Shown: piece by piece, positions 815 to 7,259 of the stretch
How the letters are laid out: every line of letters starts with the position of its first letter
Numbering within the stretch: position 1 is the first letter of the stretch
Source of the DNA: Denitrovibrio sp.
GTDB lineage: Bacteria; Chrysiogenota; Deferribacteres; Deferribacterales; Geovibrionaceae
Assembly: GCA_002869145.1 (NCBI GenBank)
Contig: PKTM01000011.1
Coordinates: 62,001 to 126,000, forward strand
DNA length: 64,000 nucleotides
Direction: 5' to 3'
Notes under the pieces: model-generated
Databases searched by the model: none
What the model was told of the DNA's origin: nothing
Seen by the model: the letters and a program-made list of their open reading frames with translations, nothing else
Made by a program: the position numbers and the translations under genes

Positions 815-3541
815 ATGCAAAATCGTGCTTTTACAAAAATAAAATATAAGCTTTTTGCTCTTTTTATTATTTCTTCTTTTCTTGTTTCCTGTAACTTTAT
901 ATTAGTGGAAGACAGCAATGACAGCACAGTTGTCTGGGGCTCCGTGGCTATGGATAGCCCTGCAGATGAGGCTAATATCACCATTGAGCAGAGGGGCTCT
1001 ATCGTATGGCAAGGCACCTGCACAAAAGGCCATTTTCAGGGGTACACAAGCCAACTTTCAGGCGGAGAACTTCGGGCTATCGCAGATAATATCACAATAA
1101 ACAGCGTACCTTATAGCGTTGAAATAAGCGCATATGTTTCTGATTATGATACAGGCTACCATATTGACATCAACCTTTTTACTACTCTTGTGGATAGATA
1201 TATCCGCTATTACTACTCATCTTATGACGAAGCTGTGAGCGCTGTTGAGCGCAACCTGCACCTTCAGGCGGGACTGGACTATTCAGCACCAATAATGTCT
1301 GAAGCGTTGAAGGCGTATTTTGACCCAAAAATTTTGATGGCAGAAGCGGCAGAATACGGTGGGCTAGATGCATATCTCGATCATCTTGTGATAGATGTGA
1401 TGAGCATAGAAACCCCAACTCTGAAGCTGAATGCACTTTATAGCCCGGCAGAGGATAGTCTGATGAAAGACCTGCCTATTTCAGCAGCAGAGGCAGCAGC
1501 GGTGGCTCTGGGCAAAGAGACAGCAGGAGAGCTGCTTAAAAACTATGGGGTTGTTGTGTCTGACCCTGCCAACCAGACCTTTCTGGATACTCTGAATGCT
1601 CAGAATGCAAAGCTGACTCAGATAGAAAATCAGATATCCGCTCTCAACGAGGATGTCGTTAATCTGGAAAATGAGTTAGGGAGTGCCATTGTCGATATGC
1701 TTTTTGACAACAGTGACCAAAATATACTAGATGCGGTAAATAATCTTCAGAATCTGGCAACAAGGCTTAAAACAAACTATACATCTGCGGCGGCGCAGGG
1801 AGCGACACCTCTCAATCAGCATGATTTTGCAATCAGCATGATAGGTAACAACGCTTTAGCGGAAAACAATGTACCTGGTATGATCTCGACTATACATATT
1901 AATGTTGTTCCTGACGGAGCTTCCGATAGCAAAGGTTCGCTGGGGGACTATGCCCTCTCCGTTCAGTCGAAGGGCGGACATGGTAATCTGTTGCAGAAAT
2001 ATATGGTACTCGAGGCCTATTTTGCCAAAATACTCTCCCTGCAGCACAGGGGGCTAATCTTGGTGACAGAGGCTATTAACGCACTTGAATCTGGAGATAC
2101 AAATGTCCAATATAATAGTAACGAAACCTATATCAACAGCGTATTTCAGCCTTTAATAAATGAAGAGATTGATGAATTTATGCGTTGGGTTGACTATCTG
2201 GTGATAGCAAACTCAGACTTTGATACAGACCTTGTGAAACCAGTACAATTTGCTCCTGACAATTCGGGTGCGGTTTATGAAAGAGCAGATTTTATAGCAC
2301 AAATGTTTTCCACCGAGCACAGAGCAAGTGCAGATGATAAAAGCGGATTTGTGATCAGACTGATAGGGCAGCCGAAAGAGATAGATGACTTTGTCTCCGC
2401 AGGTGGATATGAGGCTATGCAGATGCAGAACGGCACAAATATGTCATATGACCTGAAGCTCGTTTACCATACCGTTTACGATCTGGAAAGCAGCGATTTT
2501 TATGTAAGCGATAAGCCCAGCTGGGCAAAACCATACATACAGTGGAGCTATGCTGAAACAGACGAACATCCATCTGTTAAGGATTATATAAGCGGGACTA
2601 GTACCACAAAATATAGTGTAGCAAAATTTGTCGGTCAGGACATAGGGAACAGCAATACTTTGAGCGCACCAACTGAGTGGGGCACAGGCTGGGGGCTGGT
2701 TTCTGGAGGGAACTTCTTCGATCAGGCTGTCCACTGGAGCGGAATAGTCTCTGATATGATCAAGTATTACGTTTTTGATGAAAATAACGCTGACGGAGCA
2801 CAATTTGACGTTGCTACAGCAAACACTTCCGGTTCATTGTCATATGGCTCTCACCTGTATGTTGTGCGACACTTTCCGAATATGTCAAAGTTTGGGACAA
2901 TCAAACACAGTACCATTACAGCCCCACCATGGAACCAAGTGAGCAGTACTTTTGATAATGGTTCAATGAAGTTTTCATTTTTAGCTGATATCAAGAATAT
3001 AAATTACTCAACTTCCAGCCATGATGAAGATGGACATCAACGTACTTTATATGTATATAGTGAAAATCACCATATCGATCGAACCATTGGAGTTACATTT
3101 TATTTCGAGCAACCAGCAGGTGAGGATTGGGAACTTTTGATAAATAGCTCTATCAGTACTAAGTATACAGGTTCAAAATGGCCGATGGACGGCTTTGCAG
3201 AATTAAATCTTTTGGATGTACCATATCCAAGACCTCACGAAATACTCGTAGATGTCACGATTCACAAGCTTCGCAGTCATTATGGCTACTCTGTAGCTGA
3301 TCAACACTTTGGAGAATATGATTATGCCTATCCGTTTCGTACAGACGGCAACTCTAAGCATACTCTGAAATTTGAGGCAACAATGGATGGGAGCATTGAC
3401 AAGAGCTCTCCCTCCCATCTGAATCTGCCAAAATATGTGCAGGAGGCCAACGTGCAGATTACAAAAATGCTGTTTCACCTGAAAAGCAAAGATGACCCTT
3501 ACATACCATATGGACCTAGAGAGAGGATTTCGGGGACATAA
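815..3541 (+). CDS. Large lipoprotein of unknown function (908 aa)
   Basis: I do not recognise this protein. The chosen start is ATG 815, because GGAGG at 806-810 sits just upstream; an in-frame TTG at 776 is also open. The first 25 residues form a lipoprotein signal with a charged stretch, a hydrophobic core and lipobox FLVSC (lipidated Cys about residue 26), so the product should be anchored to a membrane facing the periplasm or the outside. Around residues 270-310 there is a short heptad-like coiled coil (QNAKLTQIENQI followed by LNEDVVNLENEL). The rest is mixed alpha/beta and rich in Ser, Tyr, Asp and Asn, with several Trp residues, as in secreted binding or adhesion proteins. No repeats or catalytic motif were seen. 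It is monocistronic and convergent with the next gene. Confidence 0.8.
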   Translation: MQNRAFTKIKYKLFALFIISSFLVSCNFILVEDSNDSTVVWGSVAMDSPADEANITIEQRGSIVWQGTCTKGHFQGYTSQLSGGELRAIADNITINSVPYSVEISAYVSDYDTGYHIDINLFTTLVDRYIRYYYSSYDEAVSAVERNLHLQAGLDYSAPIMSEALKAYFDPKILMAEAAEYGGLDAYLDHLVIDVMSIETPTLKLNALYSPAEDSLMKDLPISAAEAAAVALGKETAGELLKNYGVVVSDPANQTFLDTLNAQNAKLTQIENQISALNEDVVNLENELGSAIVDMLFDNSDQNILDAVNNLQNLATRLKTNYTSAAAQGATPLNQHDFAISMIGNNALAENNVPGMISTIHINVVPDGASDSKGSLGDYALSVQSKGGHGNLLQKYMVLEAYFAKILSLQHRGLILVTEAINALESGDTNVQYNSNETYINSVFQPLINEEIDEFMRWVDYLVIANSDFDTDLVKPVQFAPDNSGAVYERADFIAQMFSTEHRASADDKSGFVIRLIGQPKEIDDFVSAGGYEAMQMQNGTNMSYDLKLVYHTVYDLESSDFYVSDKPSWAKPYIQWSYAETDEHPSVKDYISGTSTTKYSVAKFVGQDIGNSNTLSAPTEWGTGWGLVSGGNFFDQAVHWSGIVSDMIKYYVFDENNADGAQFDVATANTSGSLSYGSHLYVVRHFPNMSKFGTIKHSTITAPPWNQVSSTFDNGSMKFSFLADIKNINYSTSSHDEDGHQRTLYVYSENHHIDRTIGVTFYFEQPAGEDWELLINSSISTKYTGSKWPMDGFAELNLLDVPYPRPHEILVDVTIHKLRSHYGYSVADQHFGEYDYAYPFRTDGNSKHTLKFEATMDGSIDKSSPSHLNLPKYVQEANVQITKMLFHLKSKDDPYIPYGPRERISGT

Positions 3542-4415: not shown

Positions 4416-4631
4416 TTATGAACTAATCAGTGATTCATAAGGGATGTCTAAATAATTATGAAGATTTTTGATCATACGGATGGTAAGGCTTCGTTTTCTG
4501 TTCAGAATTTCGCTGGCTCTGTTTGCACCGTCCAGTGTTTTTGCTATGTCTTTGTTGGAAAGCCCCATCTGCTCCATACGAAATTTTATCGCCTCCACAG
4601 GGTCTGGGCTGTCTATTGGGAAATGCTCTTC
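4416..4631 (-). pseudogene. higA: HigA-family antitoxin, 5'-truncated remnant
   Basis: On the minus strand the frame reads E-E-H-F-P-I-D-S-P-D-P and continues into VEAIKFRMEQMGLSNKD, the standard middle and C-terminal part of HigA antitoxins with their XRE-type DNA-binding helix-turn-helix (DIAKTL then ASEILNRKR). The first roughly 50 residues of the family are missing. The frame closes at a TAA exactly where the 22-bp repeat unit beside the transposase begins (4632), so the gene appears to have been cut by insertion or recombination there. A GTG at 4598 could start a 60-aa fragment that keeps the DNA-binding domain. No HigB toxin was found on either side. The family identity is clear; whether the fragment is expressed is unknown. 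Confidence 0.72.
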
Positions 4632-4675
4632 TTAGTTATGGTGACGTGATACTTTAGTTATGGTGACGTGATACT
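4632..4675. repeat. Two tandem copies of a 22-bp motif at the end of the RAYT gene
   Basis: The unit TTAGTTATGGTGACGTGATACT occurs at 4632-4653 and again, identically, at 4654-4675, head to tail. The right copy runs into the transposase stop codon (TAA, 4677-4675 on the minus strand) and the left copy abuts the broken end of higA. A diverged inverted copy lies on the other side of the transposase at 5366-5387. This looks like a terminal element of a RAYT-mobilised unit. Confidence 0.85.
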
Positions 4676-5328
4676 TAATTATCCCTTTTAGGTCCCGGCT
4701 TGTTCTTCTTTATTTTTCTGCCAAGCTCAAACTCTAACATGTCAACAAAGCATTCATCTCCGCATGGGCGACCTGTTCTTGTGCTGGAGATGATAAGATC
4801 ATCTTGTCCGTCAATGGATAGAAAATTTTTCCAGTCAGTTATTTCTGCAGTAAACGGATGTTTATCAACAAGTTTATCTTTGCTTCGTTCACCAGTAAAA
4901 AATTTCGCACTTGACCATTCATAATCCCACGCATTCTTAACAATTGATGCCTTCACAGGATTTCGCTCTACATACCTGATAGCAGAATAAAAATGTGACT
5001 CCGACAATGTGCAAGAAAAGAATCTGTCCTGAAAAAGATGTCCCCTGACACCTGCTTTAGAGTTCTTGTATCTTGTGTATAAACGGTGTGCTTCTCCGAT
5101 TCCTTTTGCAAGACTGTCTGGTTCGGAAGGTATTACAATGAAATGTACATGGTTATCCATCAGACAATAAGATAAAAATTTCAGACCTTTTTTTCCAGCC
5201 GATTCTTTAAGAAATGTCAGATATTCAACTCTGTCTTCGTCACTGTGAAATATGTCCATAGAGCGCACACCACGCTGGGTAACGTGGTGAGGGTGATTTG
5301 GTAAAACAATTCTTGGTAATCTAGCCAT
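4675..5328 (-). mobile_element. REP-associated tyrosine transposase (RAYT, Y1 HUH family)
   Basis: This is an intact 217-aa single-strand HUH endonuclease of the IS200-like REP-associated group. Family members cleave and rejoin palindromic REP-type DNA and are usually domesticated and single-copy. The HUH metal motif is DNHVHF with His60 and His62, the probable nucleophile is Tyr114 in the ESHFYSAIRYVERNP block, and the C-terminus has the TGRPCG element and a basic tail typical of the group. It starts at ATG 5328; a TATAAT ends only six bases upstream of the ATG, so the transcript may have almost no leader. It is flanked by related 22-bp motifs in opposite orientation (4632-4675 and 5366-5387), which probably mark the element ends. 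The left end adjoins a truncated antitoxin gene. Confidence 0.9.
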
Positions 5329-5365
5329 TCCTGATTATACACTACTTCATAACTGAAACAATAAT

Positions 5366-5387
5366 TAAGTATCCCGTCCCCAGAATT
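5366..5387. repeat. Inverted, diverged copy of the 22-bp RAYT-flanking motif
   Basis: The plus strand reads TAAGTATCCCGTCCCCAGAATT. The minus strand of the left motif reads TAAGTATCACGTCACCATAACT, so 18 of 22 positions agree with the two copies facing each other across the transposase. This pairing defines a candidate element from about 4632 to 5387. Confidence 0.75.
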
Positions 5388-5474
5388 CTACTTGCAACTT
5401 CATGAAATCTTGTCATAAAAGAATATCGTGTTATAATGAGTGTAATCGAGTTACTAAATGTGTAGGAGAGTACT

Positions 5475-6347
5475 ATGAAAAGAGTGATAAATATTAGTGC
5501 GGTTAATATTAAATTCGTAAAATCTAGCATGCATAAGCCTCATAACTATGTAAAGCTATTGAAATACGTTTCACAAAATCATTTTATAGGTAAAATACGA
5601 AAACATTCTATTGGCATGCTAGGAGAATTAAACACAATAACAAATGCTAATGGTGTATGCATTAGTGGAATGATATATCGGTTCACTGATATTGATGACA
5701 CCTGCCCATGGTTTAACACAAAAACAAATCAACTTATTCTTGATGACAAAGGCGAACCAATACCGCTTGTAGACAAAAATAATAAACCTAATACTGAGAC
5801 AACGCGTTTTGTTTTCTTCTCAAATGGGCATAGATTTCTATTTGATAATAAAATAATAGCTCCTCGCTCTTTGCAAAAACTACTAGATAGCATTTTTAGC
5901 ATAAATGAAGTTAGAAAAATGTTTGGCAATATAGAAGTTGAGGTCGAAACATCTCAGGATAAAGTAAAAGAGATTGTAAAAATAAAAAATAAGCGAAGTT
6001 TATTTCTAGAATTTACTGTACCGAACCCAGACGATCTATCGGCAGAAAAAGCAAAAGTTGCGAAAAGAATTGAAATGCTGAATCTCAGAAAGTACAACGA
6101 ATTGTATGTATCAGATGATTCAATAAAATTAGATGATGAAGCAAAAGCAAAGATTGATATTGCAAGTTCGAATGGTAAAATTATTGTTAAAACATTAGGA
6201 AAAGATGGTAAGATACATACAATGTCAACCGATGAATACCCATTAGATGAAAAAACTTATTATGACGGTAAAAAGACCAGTAATTATTTTAATGCTTTTA
6301 TGTCAAAATCTGAGGAAATATGGAAAATCTTGAAAAAAAGGGGATAA
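5475..6347 (+). CDS. DUF4747-like protein, accessory cassette gene 1
   Basis: This is a 290-aa soluble protein starting at ATG 5475 behind GGAGAG. The N-terminal block (KRVINISAVNIKF), the middle region with a short hydrophobic strand and phenylalanine-rich motif (RFVFFSNGHRFLF, about residues 116-128) and the charged C-terminus resemble DUF4747 proteins. I make that assignment from memory and with limited confidence; the function is unknown. The gene is visibly more AT-rich than its surroundings, with many AAA, AAT and ATA codons, which suggests acquisition by transfer. It overlaps the next gene by 28 bases, so the two are translationally coupled. Its position between a RAYT and a tRNA gene, with a soluble-plus-membrane gene pair, is reminiscent of small phage-defence or toxin-antitoxin cassettes. 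That is inference only. Confidence 0.6.
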   Translation: MKRVINISAVNIKFVKSSMHKPHNYVKLLKYVSQNHFIGKIRKHSIGMLGELNTITNANGVCISGMIYRFTDIDDTCPWFNTKTNQLILDDKGEPIPLVDKNNKPNTETTRFVFFSNGHRFLFDNKIIAPRSLQKLLDSIFSINEVRKMFGNIEVEVETSQDKVKEIVKIKNKRSLFLEFTVPNPDDLSAEKAKVAKRIEMLNLRKYNELYVSDDSIKLDDEAKAKIDIASSNGKIIVKTLGKDGKIHTMSTDEYPLDEKTYYDGKKTSNYFNAFMSKSEEIWKILKKRG

Positions 6348-6847
6348 GAAAAGTTTTTGATCCAATAAAGACTAATTTTTGTTTTTACTGGAAAATATAT
6401 GGTGGCAAAAAAGCACTGTTCTCAAGTCCGTATTTATATATCGCTTTAGGGCTTGCTTTAATTTCACCTAAGTTTGTGAGTGGTCAATGGCATAATCTTG
6501 CAATAACTATCATTCCCAATATGCTAGGATTTACACTTGGCGGGTATGCAATTCTTCTTTCTTTTGGAGGAGAGCGTTTTTTTAAAATATTATGTATAAG
6601 ATGCGCAGATGAATCTACACCAACACCTTTTATGATTTTCAATGGTGCTTTTGTACATTTTATTATTGTTCAAATAACTACCCTATTGCTTTCAGTATTA
6701 TGTAGTCAGTATGAAAAAACATGGATATTAGTTGGTTTCATTGGAACGTTCTTATTATATTACACTCTCACTACAGCATTAGCAGCTGTATTCGCAATAA
6801 TGAATATGGCAGACTGGTATGAAGATCAAGCAAACAATGAGTTGTAA
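6320..6847 (+). CDS. Small multi-pass membrane protein, accessory cassette gene 2
   Basis: This is a 175-aa protein with about four hydrophobic segments: roughly residues 34-50, 60-85, 110-128 and 135-155. It has short loops and a charged C-terminal tail (NMADWYEDQANNEL). It starts at ATG 6320 inside the end of the preceding gene, with GAGG at 6312-6315 as ribosome binding site. It shares the neighbour's AT-rich composition. I recognise no family. Coupling to a soluble DUF4747-like gene suggests the two act together, with this one as the membrane component. Confidence 0.65.
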   Translation: MENLEKKGIRKVFDPIKTNFCFYWKIYGGKKALFSSPYLYIALGLALISPKFVSGQWHNLAITIIPNMLGFTLGGYAILLSFGGERFFKILCIRCADESTPTPFMIFNGAFVHFIIVQITTLLLSVLCSQYEKTWILVGFIGTFLLYYTLTTALAAVFAIMNMADWYEDQANNEL

Positions 6848-6966: not shown

Positions 6967-7063
6967 TGGCGGAGGCGCACAGGAATCGAACCTGCCTCTC
7001 GGGGAGTACCCGAGACAATCGGTTTTGAAGACCGTGGGGTGCACCAGCATCCCAAACGCCCCC
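6967..7063 (-). tRNA. selC: tRNA-Sec (anticodon TCA), CCA encoded
   Basis: This is a 97-base tRNA on the minus strand with anticodon TCA (7028-7026) in the loop CTTCAAA. The 5' end GGGGGCGT pairs over 8 bp with GCGCCTCC near the 3' end, followed by discriminator G and an encoded CCA. The 8-bp acceptor stem, 5-bp T stem (GCAGG/CCTGT), long D stem and large variable arm (CTCGGG/CCCGAG) are diagnostic for bacterial selenocysteine tRNA. It delivers Sec at UGA codons with SelB. No known selenoprotein family, and no selA, selB or selD, occurs in this window, so the users lie elsewhere. It sits downstream of the HIT gene and could be reached by its transcript. Confidence 0.96.
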
Positions 7064-7070
7064 GAATAAG

Positions 7071-7230
7071 TTAGATTATTTTTTCGTCATGAAAAAATAA
7101 TTCGGTCGTTCACCTTGTTAAAAGCAAGGTTCACTTACACTTCGCTGGATGCAAAGCATCGCTCCGTGAGGCACATCCTGTGCCTTTAGGTTAGATTATT
7201 TTTTCGTCATGAAAAAATAATTCGGTCGTT
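7071..7230. repeat. Duplicated 40-bp AT-rich palindrome enclosing three more hairpins
   Basis: An identical 40-bp sequence occurs at 7071-7110 and 7191-7230, spaced by exactly 120 bases. Each copy contains a perfect 11-bp inverted repeat (ATTATTTTTTC and GAAAAAATAAT) around GTCAT. Between the copies are three further perfect hairpins: ACCTTG/CAAGGT (7112-7130), GATGC/GCATC (7148-7160) and AGGCACA/TGTGCCT (7169-7185). The block lies between tRNA-Sec and the HIT gene and could act as terminators or processing sites, or be a dispersed intergenic repeat family. Confidence 0.85.
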
Positions 7231-7259
7231 TCTCTTCTCATAATGACCAGCAAAAGTGA

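Follow-up and report, generated by a model that had tools for sequence, protein, structure and literature searches.

The closest described systems to the gene pair reported here are RexA/RexB of phage lambda, gp44/gp43 of CarolAnn, gp30/gp31 of Sbash, gp30/31 of Butters and PP_5643/PP_5644 (RexAB-pp) of P. putida. RexA has a fold related to that of RdgC, in which a split globular domain surrounds a dimerization domain, with flexible loops between the two (PMC11077077). Defense by CarolAnn and Sbash needs both genes of the respective pair, with membrane depolarization as the proposed mode of action (PMC6426606, PMC6426596). In P. putida, overexpression of RexA is toxic only with RexB present, and activated RexB admits dyes and damages the membrane, with no depolarization detected (PMC12894663). 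Weak HHpred matches tied DUF4747 to RexA and to the systems of CarolAnn, Sbash and Butters in 2019–2020 (mBio 2019), and DUF4747/CarolAnn was named as an immune operon downstream of capK-capS, with 17 cases, in a later study (EMBO J 2026, PMC13373217). Here we describe a DUF4747 gene (gene 1) and the membrane protein gene directly downstream of it (gene 2) in a 64,000-nucleotide stretch of Denitrovibrio DNA, which in its full length is referred to as the window, and compare the two with these systems.

Results and Discussion

The pair consists of two reading frames at positions 5475–6847, which overlap by 28 bp on the same strand and are both intact (Table 1). As the initial annotation had noted, the composition is foreign: the GC content of the pair is 0.314 (31.4%) against a window mean of 0.423 (42.3%), and other stretches of this size in the window reach 0.352 at the lowest. 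That both are genes beyond chance open reading frames follows from the homologues of both, in conserved order, in many genomes. The promoter listed in Table 1 carries a TG before its −10 element; across the region as a whole, a promoter scan gave no more sites than it did in shuffled sequence. The pair is a two-gene operon acquired horizontally.

Table 1. Coordinates of the DUF4747 operon, its signals and its tRNA neighbor in the window
Feature	Position	Strand	Basis or remark
Probable operon promoter, TTGTCA-16-TATAAT	5410–5437	+	11/12 consensus bases
Ribosome-binding-like site of gene 1, AGGAGA	5464–5469	+	from sequence
Gene 1, DUF4747 protein, 290 aa	5475–6347	+	intact ORF, PF15931, phrog_10040
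Ribosome-binding-like site of gene 2, GAGGA, within gene 1	6312–6316	+	from sequence
Gene 2, four-helix membrane protein, 175 aa	6320–6847	+	intact ORF, phrog_20580
Predicted helices of gene 2 protein	residues 37–48, 57–81, 103–129, 136–174, plus N-terminal helix		model
tRNA-Sec, 3′ end facing the pair (context, not part of the system)	6967–7063	−	ARAGORN

The placement given at first, between a RAYT and tRNA-Sec, was likewise confirmed. The left neighbor is a Y1/IS200-type (RAYT) transposase gene on the minus strand (4675–5328), present as a single copy in the genome, most of which is flanked by the 13-nt inverted repeat GATACTTAATTAT at 4670–4682 and 5361–5373; a tandem copy of TAGTTATGGTGACGTGATACTT lies at the left end of this inverted-repeat element. 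Beside it, at 4416–4598, is a 60-aa helix-turn-helix (HTH_3) reading frame, possibly a truncated antitoxin. On the right, between tRNA-Sec and a HIT gene, a 57-nt direct repeat (7067–7123 and 7187–7243, 88% identical) contains a near-palindromic 27-nt core. In the family of the window, synteny from the HIT side reaches tRNA-Sec and stops there in most relatives examined; in two of them (L053, L057) the tRNA is either missing or not next to the HIT gene. What lies beyond tRNA-Sec differs: a dCTP deaminase defense protein (PADLOC dCTPase, 6e-164) and a HipA kinase in G019, an IS3 transposase and an N-terminal fragment of GmrSD in G018, HipA and Sir2 proteins in G025 and HipA in G027. The site therefore swaps accessory and defense genes between species, its variable 3′ flank being seen at the tRNA-Sec of the window and at L050, L051, L054 and L055. 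The window contains no tRNA-derived att repeat, and we therefore do not claim an intact integrative element.

Gene 1, annotated at first as DUF4747-like, encodes a true DUF4747 protein, matching Pfam PF15931 far above the curated cut-off of 27 (176.4 bits, E = 9.6e-52) and across the full domain (profile positions 6–257 of 257), as well as phrog_10040 (4.3e-39). An AlphaFold2 model computed from an alignment of 13 sequences (pLDDT 85.9, pTM 0.82) was subjected to the fold search proposed in the initial annotation. Foldseek against the PDB returned lambda RexA (8TWQ) as the top match (E = 8.2e-6, prob 1.00) and E. coli RdgC as the second (E = 1.0e-5). Superposition on RexA as a whole chain, with the domains taken together, is poor (TM-score only 0.29, rmsd 14 Å), as would be explained by a different orientation of the domains, and the succession of strands and helices predicted for gene 1 agrees with the split globular and dimerization domains of RexA (PMC11077077). 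Compared with viral predicted structures, the model reaches TM-scores of up to 0.69, to unannotated phage proteins. The fold predicted for gene 1, with good confidence, is thus that of RexA and RdgC, both of which are non-specific DNA-binding proteins. Its homologues differ in charge (pI 5.6–9.4), so that DNA binding by gene 1 is not certain. Searches of the PDB by sequence gave no match, and Pfam found no RdgC domain in gene 1. RdgC is a housekeeping recombination protein that is not known to have an obligate membrane partner, and in this it differs from the DUF4747 protein.

Gene 2 belongs to the phrog_20580 family, as judged by a significant profile match (6.6e-26) and by the conserved motifs of that family, YWxxYGG, LGFxLGG and HFxxxQ; Pfam and NCBIfam hold no family for it. 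Four hydrophobic peaks and a model in the form of a helical bundle (pLDDT 85.3) bear out its annotation as a four-pass membrane protein. Invariant in the alignments A6 and A12 are Y23, W24, Y27, G28, G29, S36, G70, F71, H113, F114, Q118 and Y148, and the YW..YGG, GF, HF...Q and Y positions are invariant across 14 membrane protein sequences. Here the proposed fold search returned no solved relative of the model at E ≤ 0.001, and we therefore claim no channel fold. Both the N-terminus and the helix 2–3 loop contain basic residues, which suggests that these parts are cytoplasmic, as in the published topology of Sbash gp31. Some homologues carry C-terminal additions: a zinc-ribbon-like CxxC...CxxC tail in L014, L016 and L061, and long charged tails that are not zinc-ribbon-like in L006 and L018.

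The two genes are a conserved, co-inherited unit. All first relatives, obtained by tblastn on plasmids and by a Pfam search of the phylum, carried both genes (Niveispirillum, two Acinetobacter plasmids and one genome of the same order). Screening 2.9 million viral contigs with the membrane protein as the only query then yielded 13 loci, of which 12 have upstream sequence; in every one of the 12 the next gene upstream, in the same orientation, encodes a DUF4747 protein, the thirteenth locus (L061) starting at the contig edge. The 13 loci include near-duplicates (L065/L066, L067/L069, L068/L070), and L060 equals L015. In 19 pairs the spacing between the genes ranges from −62 to +12 bp, and the distance matrices of the two proteins correlate with r = 0.84 (0.59 among 16 divergent pairs), values as high as either of which were found in 0 of 5000 permutations. 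Alignments of closer relatives were needed as queries because the families are too divergent for single-sequence searches: a single-sequence query with gene 1 retrieved nothing related from viral or genome contigs, nor did tblastn with either protein retrieve a phage record. Neither of the outcomes that the initial annotation had named as speaking against a defense module was therefore encountered, in that the neighborhood analysis found the pair conserved as a unit and the search for a clear housekeeping homologue found none at the sequence level. In the relative of the same order (L004), a stop occurs soon after the likely ATG of the DUF4747 gene (about 2256–2275, minus strand).

Copies of the pair were found in prophages, on small plasmids and in chromosomes, and their occurrence is patchy. 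DUF4747 is present in 2 of 51 genomes of the phylum of the window; outside this phylum the counts rest on a small taxonomic sample, with 12 of 176 genomes in Acinetobacter, the genus of G051, and 1 of 369 in the class of G051, the one being G051 itself, the center of the search. Near the pair in viral contigs are genes for terminase, portal, head protease, baseplate and integrase and, in one case (L062), for an M13-type assembly protein I, which suggests that tailed as well as filamentous phages carry the pair. Of the chromosomal Acinetobacter copies, two (L025, L026) lie near phage genes and one (L027) near a Bro-N gene.

Set beside lambda RexA/RexB, the pair shows the same order of two adjacent genes with products of similar length (290/175 aa here, 279/144 aa in lambda), a soluble protein whose best solved fold match is RexA, a membrane protein that, like RexB, has four helices, and a phage-borne state in many of its copies. 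It differs in that its genes overlap, whereas those of lambda are 15 bp apart, in that it is not placed behind a cI repressor, and in the conserved motifs of gene 2, which are other than those of RexB. Neither Pfam nor PADLOC matches gene 1 to the RexA family (PF15969/PDLC02339), with lambda RexA as control matching its own family at 1e-97 in the same kind of search, or gene 2 to the RexB family (PF15968/PDLC02340), and hhalign detects no similarity in either case; PADLOC 2.0 recognizes neither gene of the pair, yet does recognize lambda RexA and RexB. With CarolAnn and Sbash the pair shares the overlapping order of a soluble and a four-pass membrane protein gene, and the soluble proteins of these phages have the weak published link to DUF4747 mentioned above; they are longer, however (about 370 aa against 290 aa), and the membrane proteins are devoid of the YWxxYGG motif. 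Defense by CarolAnn and Sbash has been shown by experiment (PMC6426606, PMC6426596), whereas the pair in the window is known from sequence and models. Alignments of the profiles A5, A6, A11 and A12 with the RexA, RexB, CarolAnn and Sbash proteins gave no similarity, and sequence homology to any of these is not claimed. In the case of CarolAnn and Sbash (gp44/gp30 and gp43/gp31) the hhalign probabilities were below 1%, with alignments of only 3 sequences on the phage side. Since these alignments are shallow, and since hhalign likewise fails to connect CarolAnn/Sbash with lambda RexA, distant homology is possible.

The remaining systems share parts of this plan. P. putida PP_5643/PP_5644 combines a RexA-related cytosolic DNA-binding protein with a four-helix membrane effector (PMC12894663), a likeness drawn from the published description, and Butters gp30/31 has the two-gene plan. 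The capK-capS operons with DUF4747/CarolAnn have a DUF4747 gene in common with the pair in the window, which has no capKS. Therefore, given a published RexAB-like plan, a literature link between DUF4747 and RexA and the fold match to RexA, the pair is not an undescribed kind of module: the initial annotation knew of no described system of this sort, and its plan is that of lambda RexAB, Sbash, CarolAnn, Butters and P. putida. The defense reading made there stands; the claim of novelty for the module does not, RexAB-type pairs having been published and DUF4747 already being linked to them.

We consider the pair to be, most probably, a RexAB-type phage-exclusion (abortive infection) operon. Its co-inheritance, predicted fold and mobile context are observed in the pair and its relatives: the membrane partner is four-pass, directly downstream and inherited together with a soluble protein for which the RexA fold is predicted. 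DNA binding, activation by phage, protein–protein contact and membrane damage are carried over by analogy from RexA/RexB, CarolAnn, Sbash and P. putida. Following these, the DUF4747 protein would dimerize on DNA and respond to a protein of the incoming phage or to its DNA or DNA–protein intermediates. Once activated it would act on the membrane protein, with contact probably being made through the conserved N-terminal YWxxYGG helix of the latter or its helix 2–3 loop, and the membrane protein would then open a pore or damage the membrane, such that the infected cell stops growth or dies before phage release. The order of events, with a sensor followed by membrane damage, is rather likely, and an ion channel and a general damage of the membrane are about equally plausible as the lesion.

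Alternatively, gene 2 could be a constitutive membrane toxin kept in check by gene 1, the two forming a toxin–antitoxin module that stabilizes plasmids or islands. Toxin–antitoxin genes are frequent in such islands, the pair lies next to RelE/ParE or BrnT/BrnA genes on small plasmids, and the overlap of genes 1 and 2 is seen in many toxin–antitoxin operons. However, the soluble protein (277–362 aa in the homologues compared) is far longer than usual antitoxins and has the predicted fold of DNA-binding proteins, neither gene of the analogous CarolAnn pair is toxic alone, and the soluble partner in P. putida activates the membrane toxin and does not silence it, all of which makes this an unlikely explanation. 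Thus, where the initial annotation had left abortive infection and toxin–antitoxin side by side, a mobile, conserved unit with the plan of the former is retained, and the latter fits less well.

The rank of RdgC as second-best PDB match of gene 1, the effect that lambda RexA also has on the lysis–lysogeny switch (PMC11077077) and the many copies in prophages would be in line with gene 1 being an RdgC-like regulator of recombination or of a prophage switch that is localized by gene 2. Copies on plasmids and at a tRNA site outside prophages would have no such switch to regulate, though, Pfam detects no RdgC domain, and the search that started from the membrane protein always found both genes, at variance with an RdgC that has no obligate membrane partner; we hold a modulator of this type to be very unlikely. 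It is also improbable that the pair is cargo, decayed or passive, left over from a lost element and now functionless in this genome. It does sit next to a RAYT transposase and a helix-turn-helix fragment, with no att repeat derived from the tRNA in the window and no copy of the pair in the two other genomes of the genus, but both reading frames are full-length, every invariant residue is kept, and a near-consensus promoter and ribosome-binding sites are in place.

Returning to the RexAB-type operon, we find that DUF4747 genes also occur with other partners. In four Acinetobacter genomes (L029–L032) the gene after DUF4747 encodes a different membrane protein, which begins with MDLVLKYLPLIIFIYPILSW or a similar sequence and gave no family match in the two genomes that were scanned. 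In three of these loci (L029–L031) DUF4747 is preceded by two capK/capS-like genes that resemble each other from locus to locus, and the membrane protein behind DUF4747 there is not of the phrog_20580 family. In L029 the two genes encode a HATPase protein and a small MarR-like winged-helix protein, which matches the description of capK and capS, and PrrC and a type I restriction gene lie before them. Two further Acinetobacter loci (L033, L034), with weak DUF4747 matches, have no membrane gene directly downstream. This suggests that a DUF4747 sensor can be joined to different effectors. Tentatively, DUF4747 may then be a modular sensor family of RexA/RdgC fold that was joined independently to unrelated membrane effectors, namely the YWxxYGG four-helix family, the Acinetobacter family under capKS-like control and, by kinship of fold, RexB and gp31/gp43, with the pair in the window as a branch with a trigger and a membrane lesion of its own; we regard this as possible, somewhat short of probable.

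Conclusions

What appears new here is, on the basis of the model, a structural link to RexA for a true DUF4747 protein and, as far as the sequences indicate, the strict pairing of DUF4747 with a membrane family of its own, together with the description of that family. DUF4747, a Pfam domain of unknown function, gains a predicted fold and a testable role, and defense-finding tools could pick up pairs that escape PADLOC 2.0. Despite decades of work on RexAB, both the trigger of RexA and the action of its membrane partner are still unsettled. A branch that is distinct in sequence and widely spread outside E. coli and the actinobacteria, and in which both proteins have invariant positions, provides independent material for mutational and comparative tests of these questions.
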